11,051 bases of DNA from Bacillota bacterium. Its GTDB lineage: Bacteria > Bacillota > DTU030 > DUMP01. Positions 9,185-11,051 of the stretch are shown piece by piece. The stretch spans positions 1-11,051 of the forward strand of contig JAAYHG010000210.1 of assembly GCA_012735455.1 (NCBI GenBank), written 5' to 3'. The position numbers were made by a program, and so were the translations under genes. Within the stretch, counting starts at the first letter, position 1, and every line of letters starts with the position of its first letter. The notes under the pieces are model-generated. The model did no database searches, had not been told where the DNA came from, and saw only the letters and a program-made list of their open reading frames with translations.

Positions 9185-9826
9185 TTACAAAACCCAATTC
9201 ATCACTCCTTTTAGTAATACCGGAGTAATATAAGCCTCCACGAGTCCTGCCACCACTGCAGCCGCACCTGCTACGAACAAGAAAAGACCATAGCTAAAAA
9301 GCGGCAACGGCCCCTGGGCGCGGCGGTTGAGTAGCCGCTGCTGCACCACGCAGACGGAGAAGCAAACCGCTCCTGCGCCAGATAGGACAATGGCTGGCAC
9401 AGTAAGCAGGCTTTGTGGCAATACGGCAGCGCCAGCCACCAGGAGACCACGCCAGTTGATCTCATCCACCAGAAAGCCCACTGTAAACCCACTGGTAAAA
9501 CCCTTGGTAAATAGCAGCACCAATGCCAAAGGTAAGCCTACTACTGTAAGCCCGCTGAACCAGATGAGGGCCACGCCCTTGAGGTTGGACCACACCGTAT
9601 GCGTCGCCAGCTCTTGACCTTTATACGCAGTTGGTTCCGAAACGTCCTGTAGCAACAGGATCAGATAGTCTATGAGCTCAGCCTTTTGCTCAGTGGTAAG
9701 CGTTTTCACCGCCAGGGCACCAAACACAACCCCCACCGCAAACAGTAGAATAACAAAAAAGTAAATACCGAGGTGCCTCCTGACATGCTGCGCCAGGTCC
9801 TCCTCCCACTGCGTGGCGCGCATCAT
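9185..9826 (-). CDS. spoIIM: Stage II sporulation protein M (SpoIIM)
   Basis: This 213-residue polytopic membrane protein belongs to the SpoIIM family, which with SpoIID and SpoIIP forms the peptidoglycan-degrading engulfment complex at the septum. Hydrophobic segments lie at about 21-40, 84-107, 127-162 (probably two) and 175-198. Family marks are FTKGFTSGFTVGFLVDE (106-122), LPQSLLTVPAIVLSGAGA (136-153) and VEAYITP (196-202). The longest frame opens with TTG at 9853. The ATG pair at 9821-9826 directly behind GAGGGGGG is preferred; either ATG could be used. It lies between the Nudix gene and xerD. The 75 bases downstream, before xerD, hold no hairpin with a T-tract. A sigma-E-like promoter is possible upstream, in keeping with mother-cell expression in Bacillus. 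Confidence 0.92.
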   Translation of the reverse strand: MMRATQWEEDLAQHVRRHLGIYFFVILLFAVGVVFGALAVKTLTTEQKAELIDYLILLLQDVSEPTAYKGQELATHTVWSNLKGVALIWFSGLTVVGLPLALVLLFTKGFTSGFTVGFLVDEINWRGLLVAGAAVLPQSLLTVPAIVLSGAGAVCFSVCVVQQRLLNRRAQGPLPLFSYGLFLFVAGAAAVVAGLVEAYITPVLLKGVMNWVL

Positions 9827-9852
9827 AATCCCCCCTCGAAATCCTTCTTTCA

Positions 9853-9881
9853 ACCATATGCAGGGGGGAAGGCCAGTATAC
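9853..9881 (-). promoter_or_regulatory. Possible sigma-E-like promoter of spoIIM
   Basis: On the minus strand GTATACT (9875-9881) and CATATGGT (9853-9860) are separated by 14 bases. They resemble the mother-cell sigma-E pattern KMATATT / CATACAMT (five of seven and five of eight matches, with the key ATA and CATA kept). A start about seven bases downstream would leave roughly 20 bases before the spoIIM ATG. spoIIM is sigma-E dependent in B. subtilis. The match is partial. Confidence 0.33.
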
Positions 9882-9883
9882 CG

Positions 9884-10414
9884 CTACTTCTCTCGGGCTG
9901 CCAGCAGGAGACCAACATAGGTCTTGGCGTCGCGGATCCGTCCCTCTTCTATCCAGGCTAGAGCATCCTGTAGCAAGACCTTGTGTACCTCGACAAACTC
10001 ATCAGGATCCGTCTGTCCCGCTTGTGGCACGAGATCCCACGCCTCATAAAGGTACATAAACTCAGAAGAAAAACCAGGTGCGGTGTAAAAGGAAGCCAGT
10101 TTACGCAGCTTCCCAGGTGAGTAGCCCGTCTCTTCCTGCAGTTCCCGCACCGCACACACCTCTGGGCTTTCGCCTTTCTCTAGTTTCCCAGCCGGTATCT
10201 CCCACAGTTCCTCCCCTGTGGCATAGCGAAACTGCCGCACTAAAATAACACTCTCTAGACTCGGGCGTGCGAGTATAGCAACTGCTCCAGGGTGACGAAC
10301 CACATCACGAAAGGCTTCCATGCCGTTAGGCAGCCGAACGAGGGAACGCTCCACCTTAAATATTTTCCCCAGGTAAACTTCCTCTTGAGCTAGAGTCTCT
10401 TCACGCAAATTCAT
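9884..10414 (-). CDS. nudF: ADP-ribose pyrophosphatase, Nudix family
   Basis: This 176-residue Nudix hydrolase probably cleaves ADP-ribose to AMP and ribose 5-phosphate. The Nudix box GX5EX7REUXEEXGU is fully satisfied at residues 76-98 (Gly76, Glu82, Arg90-Glu91, Glu94-Glu95, Gly97). The preceding RQFRYATGEELWEIPAG (60-76) and the following FYTAPGFSSEFMYLY are hallmarks of the ADPRase subgroup. The longest frame starts at 10450. The ATG at 10412-10414 is preferred, because AGGTGG (10421-10426) lies six bases upstream while the upstream ATG has no ribosome-binding site. It is divergent from the small MciZ-like gene across 73 bases and lies 57 bases before spoIIM. In B. subtilis nudF is likewise a neighbour of mciZ. 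Substrate is inferred from the subfamily motifs. Confidence 0.92.
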   Translation of the reverse strand: MNLREETLAQEEVYLGKIFKVERSLVRLPNGMEAFRDVVRHPGAVAILARPSLESVILVRQFRYATGEELWEIPAGKLEKGESPEVCAVRELQEETGYSPGKLRKLASFYTAPGFSSEFMYLYEAWDLVPQAGQTDPDEFVEVHKVLLQDALAWIEEGRIRDAKTYVGLLLAAREK

Positions 10415-10420
10415 CTTTAT

Positions 10421-10426
10421 CCACCT
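10421..10426 (-). promoter_or_regulatory. Shine-Dalgarno that decides the nudF start
   Basis: AGGTGG lies six bases before the ATG at 10412-10414. The longer frame from 10450 is preceded by a C-rich stretch with no ribosome-binding site. Confidence 0.65.
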
Positions 10427-10427
10427 C

Positions 10428-10455
10428 TCATAACCTAAGCATGAAGGCATAAATA
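10428..10455 (+). promoter_or_regulatory. Weak sigma-E-like promoter ahead of the MciZ-like gene
   Basis: TCATAAC (10428-10434) fits five of seven positions of the sigma-E -35 pattern KMATATT. CATAAATA (10448-10455) keeps the CATA of the -10 pattern CATACAMT. The 13-base spacing is one short of usual. The predicted start, near 10462, would precede the Shine-Dalgarno at 10475. mciZ is sigma-E dependent in B. subtilis. This is suggestive only, and it overlaps the start region of the divergent nudF. Confidence 0.22.
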
Positions 10456-10487
10456 ATAGGGGGGAATCTTATTCAGGAGGTTAAACC

Positions 10488-10616
10488 ATGCAGACCATTT
10501 TTTTCCGTCGGGGACTGGTCTTTCAAGGGCAGGCAAAGGACCTTCTGCCCTTCCTAGAGCAGCTGCTCAGGGAAGCCGACACCCTATCTCAAGTTGTCAA
10601 ACGCCATCTCCACTGA
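10488..10616 (+). CDS. mciZ: MciZ-like 42-residue peptide (putative FtsZ-ring inhibitor)
   Basis: This is a short plus-strand gene with a perfect AGGAGG (10475-10480) seven bases before ATG 10488-10490, ending at TGA 10614-10616. The peptide begins MQTIFF, continues RRGLVFQGQAKDLLPFL (7-23) and ends with a basic stretch at 39-42. It aligns without gaps to recalled B. subtilis MciZ (40 residues; PKGVVLVGKAWEIRAKL). Identical positions are Met1, Gly9, Val11, Gly14, Ala16 and Leu23, with conservative hydrophobic changes at 10, 12 and 19. MciZ caps FtsZ filaments in the mother cell and blocks a second medial division in sporulation. The neighbours agree: nudF is divergent at 73 bases and spoIIM follows, as in Bacillus. 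Its last 20 bases overlap the 3' end of the DUF3866 gene on the other strand. It is a real gene with high likelihood; the MciZ function is inferred from weak similarity plus synteny. Confidence 0.7.
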   Translation: MQTIFFRRGLVFQGQAKDLLPFLEQLLREADTLSQVVKRHLH

Positions 10617-11051
10617 CAAGACCTGCCGCAACCCGACCAGCTGCTGCCGCGGCCAGGAAAAAAGCAGGATCTTCTTCCGGCCCACGTCCCATACTAGTGA
10701 CTCTGAGATTCAACCTTGCCAAGAGACCTAGCCCTTCGCAGCCGGATGCAGTAACAATGTCGTGGCGAGTGCTGACACCGCTCTCGTCCAGTTGGTGCTT
10801 CACCACCCTCAAGAAGGCTTGATCCGTAAGTTCGGGCAAGACCGCCGTGGCCCGTCCAAGGGCTACTCGCGTAAGAGCGGTAAGGGTGTGGTGACTCACT
10901 CCCTTGTGGCGCGGCCGCAAATCACGTTCACTTAGACGCAATACCGCTATCGGTTTACCGCCCAGAGAAAGAGCAGCATTGATAGTCTGCCCTTGTTCCA
11001 CGGCGGATCAGCCAAACTGCGTCCCTGTCCCCACGGTACCTGGCCCCATAG
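10597..11051 (-). pseudogene. DUF3866 family protein, C-terminal part, interrupted by an in-frame TGA
   Basis: The minus-strand frame encodes the C-terminal region of a DUF3866 protein, a family of unknown function found in Gram-positive bacteria. From the window edge the frame reads MGPGTVGTGTQFG, then TGA (11008-11010), then SAVEQGQTINAALSLGGKP and on through RPRHKGVSHHTLTALTRVAL. Sequence on both sides of the TGA is in one frame and belongs to one conserved block (GPGxVGTGTxxG-aromatic-SGxEQG, as I recall the family). The stop therefore lies inside the protein, where an aromatic residue or His is usual; a TGG-to-TGA change would explain it. The downstream part can be read as a 134-residue ORF from a GTG at 10999-11001, but that GTG lies in the middle of the motif and has no Shine-Dalgarno. 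The gene is cut by the right edge. Alternatives are a sequencing error or recoding. Confidence 0.6.

Follow-up and report, generated by a model that had tools for sequence, protein, structure and literature searches.

A divergent MciZ-type peptide encoded opposite nudF in a Bacillota sporulation cluster shares a family with Bacillus MciZ

The FtsZ inhibitor MciZ of B. subtilis (PF13072; PDB 2mrw, 4u39) is described in the accessible portions of the literature as a Bacillus regulator, and among the literature matches listed, available in part, no description was found of MciZ outside Bacillus and its relatives, nor of a fixed locus or promoter for it there. MciZ is already known in clostridia as a kind, since NCBI has given a few clostridial proteins (P0030, P0031, P0060, P0073) the name "Z-ring formation inhibitor MciZ". 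This study concerns a 42-codon mciZ-like gene in positions 1 to 11,051 of contig JAAYHG010000210.1 (GenBank assembly GCA_012735455.1, a Bacillota bacterium), a stretch of 11,051 nucleotides called the window below; it adds a member to this kind and widens its range. By profile, locus, and predicted fold, the window peptide and Bacillus MciZ are one family. The gene very probably encodes a divergent clostridial-type MciZ, proposed to act as a sigma-E-driven inhibitor of FtsZ in the mother cell, with FtsZ as its presumed binding partner.

The gene and its ribosome-binding site lie at the following positions.

10488..10616, plus strand: mciZ-like gene, 42 codons and a TGA stop, recognised by its open reading frame (ORF), homologues in relatives, and codon substitution pattern
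10475..10480, plus strand: ribosome-binding site AGGAGG, 7 nt 5' of the mciZ-like ATG, recognised by sequence

The ATG at 10488 and the TGA at 10614-10616 delimit a product of 42 amino acids, exactly where the first-pass annotation had placed this gene with its ideal ribosome-binding site. The peptide resembles B. subtilis MciZ in length (42 against 40 residues), in an ungapped alignment that keeps Gly14 and Leu23, in a predicted hairpin-helix-helix, in its position opposite nudF, in a sigma-E-type promoter, and in its spore-forming host. It differs in lying below Pfam detection and in having Thr32 and a C-terminal Leu-His without Trp17, Arg20, and Trp36. Its locus also differs from that of Bacillus-type MciZ in the convergent neighbour, DUF3866, which was not found within 1.5 kb of the three Bacillus-type loci examined when the window's DUF3866 fragment was used as the query. 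The first-pass annotation correctly reported that the peptide aligns ungapped with Bacillus MciZ and has Gly9, Val11, Gly14, Ala16, and Leu23 in common with it; alone, these features are weak evidence.

By profile, the NCBI-named clostridial copies belong to this family as well; P0030, P0031, and P0060 correspond to the frames translated from L034, L046, and L084, and DUF3866 is adjacent in L034 and L084. The window branch is more divergent than these, lies below the Pfam cut-off, and carries no name. As a separate observation, three MciZ-type peptides, P0002 (Calderihabitans maritimus, identical to the peptide of L025), P0027, and P0063, are labelled in public databases as PadR family transcriptional regulators, probably wrongly. 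SulA and MinC, larger proteins that are unrelated to the window peptide and not known to be specific to sporulation, are a further comparison. They inhibit FtsZ at its C-terminal face (PMC11938149), the surface proposed here as the target of the peptide.

The link to MciZ is carried by comparisons of profiles. A profile of 11 peptides (A1) was searched against 398 genomes of the phylum and matched 269 of them at E <=1, with much noise, and 79 at E <=1e-3; the top of this match list, down to E 0.0053, supplied 90 loci for analysis. When A1 was compared by hhalign with ten Bacillus-type MciZ sequences, the two aligned without gaps over 39 columns with a probability of 95.9, and the score of 41.1 stood far above the maximum of 13.1 reached in 150 column shuffles, while the same-family rows alone (n = 6) scored 18.0 in the same comparison. 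A 41-row profile without any Pfam-positive row gave 39 ungapped columns against Bacillus MciZ as well (probability 96.9, E 1.8e-10). Scanned singly, 25 of the 56 members of set A4, which include four Bacillus MciZ and the Bacillus-type L075, matched MciZ at E <=1, and other families received two matches each at most.

The Pfam MciZ model exceeded its own cut-off in 14 of the 398 genomes, comprising three of Bacillus type, ten at sites that also match the family profile, and one that is probably a chance match, having an internal stop and no match to the family profile. DUF3866, nudF, or spoIIM lies alongside eight of the ten shared sites; seven of these eight are among the 90 loci, and the last (G193, L114, with DUF3866) was recognised on an extra flank search. 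In G169, about 2 kb separates the Pfam MciZ site from DUF3866 (L135), and L117 of the same genome was without a flank in the extra search. No flank was found for G134 (L046/L113) or L068, the extra flank queries included. One further candidate, L098, was judged a chance match, being an 898-residue frame without synteny; it was excluded from the promoter count and from sets A4 and A5 and is counted among the 90 loci for synteny.

The surroundings of the gene consist of three conserved neighbours.

9884..10414, minus strand: nudF-type NUDIX hydrolase, divergent neighbour, preferred start 10414, longest ORF from 10450 (Pfam NUDIX and the alignment of relatives)
10597..11001, minus strand: 3' part of a DUF3866 gene, convergent neighbour, truncated by the contig end (Pfam PF12982, positions 198-318 of 318)
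9185..9853, minus strand: spoIIM, conserved neighbour on the nudF side (Pfam SpoIIM)

The NUDIX gene is called nudF here by its position, and the last 20 nt of DUF3866 overlap the mciZ-like ORF. The nudF start is most likely 10414 rather than 10450 because in 8/10 other loci the alignment with the relatives begins no earlier than residue 13-15 of the longer ORF, and this start would leave 10415-10487 as the divergent intergenic region. Beside nudF and spoIIM in relatives, where the first-pass annotation had proposed to look, the mciZ-like ORF recurs: in 87/90 loci it stands opposite DUF3866 (74), nudF (60), or spoIIM (34), none of the 90 has a flank in the same orientation as the ORF, and 64 have DUF3866 on one side with nudF or spoIIM on the other. 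Of the three exceptions, L046 and L068 showed no flank, and L098 is the chance match. This synteny is an independent confirmation, because position was not used in the profile search. The adjacency to nudF had been likened to that in Bacillus, and the Bacillus-type genes in L075, L111, and L112 indeed lie opposite nudF in the same way.

Among 80 named loci with DUF3866, 26 had a peptide match at E <1e-3; every one of these matches lay on the opposite strand, and in 25 DUF3866 was the immediate neighbour. These named loci are partly redundant, at least 10 of the 26 being contigs already among the genome loci. The other 54 gave no peptide match under E 1e-3, a few of these stretches ending soon after DUF3866, and they include Tissierella, Romboutsia, Peptacetobacter, and metagenome-assembled genomes (MAGs) of Armatimonadota. 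On DUF3866 itself, DUF3866 genes were also seen in MAGs labelled Armatimonadota, Abditibacteriales, and Actinomycetota (L151, L184, L189, L201, L137, L172); the mciZ-like ORF was not found in the first five of these loci, and L172 is uninformative, ending 33 bases past the DUF3866 match. The literature on DUF3866 yielded nothing beyond a table row.

A short ORF that shares 20 nt with the 3' end of DUF3866 and runs against the direction of its neighbours could be thought to yield no protein, being a chance ORF or else an RNA or DNA element, such as a promoter or antisense element for nudF or DUF3866. The substitution data make this barely credible. Homologues of the window peptide occur in 5/7 other genomes of the same family (E 8.8e-11 to 1.8e-5), and the comparison of related pairs drawn from 11 locus groups gave pS (synonymous) 0.51 and pN (non-synonymous) 0.15 in the reading frame, consecutive pairs showing 281.3 changes per 557.0 synonymous sites against 288.7 per 1933.0 non-synonymous sites. 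The other two frames of the same strand showed no synonymous excess (pS/pN 0.23/0.23 and 0.17/0.24). The peptide family is under strong purifying selection as a protein, with dN well below dS; this result rests on relatives, the window's own genus having no second genome. A chance ORF is rejected on the strength of dN/dS and the frame controls, and profile matches in 114/398 genomes also oppose this alternative. The first-pass annotation had named conservation of the overlapping DNA, and not of the peptide, as the pattern that would speak against its proposal; it is the peptide that is conserved.

Several observations concern the frame in relatives. In G002 and G007, translation of a 420-base stretch adjoining nudF, in all three frames of the strand on which the gene would be expected, revealed no peptide homologue, and these two peptide-free loci (L224 and L223, respectively) share a similar AGCAGGA... 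element followed by a GCGAATAT box. In genus g2 of the same family (L002, L006/L026, L004/L029), ATT or ATC stands at the position of the window's ATG, with GGAGG at the normal distance from this codon in L004, an indication that translation begins at a rare codon or farther upstream. In family f50 (L047, L048, L051, L059, L067), the mciZ-like frame extends by about 45-65 codons to give ORFs of 89-104 residues, the extension running toward the DUF3866 3' end and probably antisense to it.

Upstream of the gene, two boxes form a putative sigma-E promoter whose pattern recurs 5' of the relatives.

10430..10432, plus strand: putative sigma-E -35 core ATA
10448..10451, plus strand: putative sigma-E -10 core CATA, 15 nt past the ATA

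The pattern ATA-N15/16-CATA is not unusual within the window alone, and its conservation carries the argument. Within 150 bases 5' of the match, it was present in 57/89 loci against 5/89 on the reverse strand (25/38 against 4/38 when counted by family), and 300 shuffles gave 3.45 +/- 1.77 loci with a maximum of 10. The boxes were spaced by 15 in 26 loci and by 16 in 32, and every other spacing from 4 to 30 occurred in 1 to 12. According to the portion of PMC3789822 available, mapping of C. difficile spoIIID gave ATA-N16-CATATATA as its sigma-E promoter, and promoters of sigma-K are distinguished from those of sigma-E by AC at -35. In the same family as the window, AT[AT]-N15/16-CATA was absent from the spoIVA upstream regions in 8/8, 7/8 of which have a CATATA box; in the spoIIID upstream regions it was present in 4/8, always with ATT instead of ATA, three others having GCATCTTTT and GCATATACA at similar spacing and one being cut by the contig. 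The same-family spoIIID promoters have a related arrangement in which ATT or ATC replaces ATA. A sigma-70 scan of 10380-10700 returned one weak site, on the other strand only, and no terminator was found. Judged from this conservation, the mciZ-like relatives carry a conserved, putative sigma-E-type promoter.

Structure prediction points in the same direction. An AlphaFold2 model built without Bacillus rows reached a predicted local distance difference test score (pLDDT) of 90.5, and its first match of nine structures was 4u39_J, the FtsZ-bound MciZ, at 0.8 Å over 36/36 residues with residues 2-37 on 2-37; the predicted secondary structure (E2-6, E9-13, H16-29, H33-41) is a hairpin followed by two helices. 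An FtsZ of the same family aligns with the FtsZ of B. subtilis in 4u39 (E 2e-139, residues 12-315), and the target surface is therefore probably present. The residues of the peptide divide into two types: Trp17, Arg20, and Trp36 show little or no variation among ten Bacillus-type rows and are replaced in most other members, where Thr32 occurs in 46/52 rows and a C-terminal Leu41 in 32/35 rows reaching it, followed mostly by His or Asn (24/28).

By analogy with B. subtilis MciZ, which keeps the mother cell from a further division during sporulation, the window peptide would block FtsZ in the mother cell. After polar septation, sigma-E would become active in the mother cell and transcribe the mciZ-like gene; the peptide would fold as a beta-hairpin and two helices on the C-terminal polymerisation face of FtsZ and would cap or sequester it, so that no second Z-ring or septum would form in the mother cell.

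Some results weigh against this proposal. The window peptide by itself has no match in Pfam or NCBIfam and lies below the Pfam MciZ cut-off, which speaks against MciZ identity in the narrow sense; the search against the Pfam MciZ profile suggested in the first-pass annotation thus gave no significant match, and the link runs through the family. The Pfam MciZ model had no match in the window's genome, the peptide alone against PDB returned one irrelevant match (E 8.8), and a PDB profile search with A1 listed MciZ among its matches without significance. The FtsZ C-terminal domain was not found in the window's draft genome (1.68 Mb, 355 contigs, 93.22% complete), nor in two of seven relatives; the three assemblies concerned each consist of 110 contigs or more, and an assembly gap would be the simplest reason.

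A convergent FtsZ-targeting peptide, or another small helical peptide merely resembling MciZ, would agree with the low pairwise identity to B. subtilis MciZ and the weak direct PDB profile match. This is highly improbable given the ten intermediates outside the three Bacillus-type genomes that pass Pfam MciZ, eight with the conserved neighbours, the Bacillus-type GKAWE signature of L139 beside DUF3866, and the shared arrangement opposite nudF in L075, L111, and L112. A homologous peptide of the MciZ fold may also have changed its job, remaining linked to sporulation with a partner or stage other than FtsZ in the mother cell, as the replacement of Trp17, Arg20, and Trp36 in most members and their shared Thr32 and Leu41 could indicate. 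We consider this unlikely, as the predicted fold and register are those of MciZ, the orientation to nudF is that of the three Bacillus-type genes, the promoter is of sigma-E type, and FtsZ is highly conserved. The assignment to MciZ made in the first-pass annotation is supported by the profile comparison, the Pfam matches in the family, synteny, predicted fold, sigma-E-type promoter, and co-occurrence with spoIVA.

The other genes identified in the window by Pfam families and ORFs are all on the minus strand, which leaves the mciZ-like gene as the lone plus-strand gene among those identified, as first described, in a sporulation cluster. Its members are GerA-type and spoVA-type genes, dodecin, sigF, spoIIAB, spoIIAA, a dacF-type carboxypeptidase, a purine phosphorylase, a deoB-type phosphomutase, a tyrosine recombinase, spoIIM, nudF, and DUF3866. 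The Pfam families were computed, and the short gene names are in part presumed, XerD for the tyrosine recombinase among them. The dodecin gene (Pfam PF07311, 2836-3045, minus strand), between sigF and the spoVA genes, was unexpected in a sporulation cluster.

Concerning distribution, a 56-row profile matched at E <=1e-3 in the 114 phylum genomes mentioned above, which represent 43 families. The spoIVA gene was present in 113/114 positive genomes against 223/284 others (Fisher p 4e-9, uncorrected for relatedness), and the window's genome carries both spoIVA and spoIIID. Absence is common, 223/336 spoIVA genomes having no match. The positive named loci include Desulforamulus putei and Syntrophomonas zehnderi, both of NCBI class Clostridia, and MAGs labelled Thermincola ferriacetica and Desulfoscipio geothermicus. 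Sequence matches thus place MciZ relatives across many non-Bacillus spore formers.

On balance, we favour the view that the endospore programme ancestrally included MciZ, fixed at the nudF-spoIIM locus under sigma-E before the split of Bacilli and clostridia, with the Bacillus form derived and the clostridial branch having its own contact signature (Thr32, C-terminal Leu-His/Asn). If this is true, losses in many sporulating lineages would mark groups that block the second septum otherwise. A gene this small and below profile detection can be recovered by combining locus, promoter, and codon pattern, and the family offers a set of natural MciZ variants with which to study how a 40-residue peptide caps FtsZ. 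If many of the 43 families have an MciZ under a sigma-E-type promoter, the division block in the mother cell would be widespread among endospore formers, and not a detail of Bacillus.
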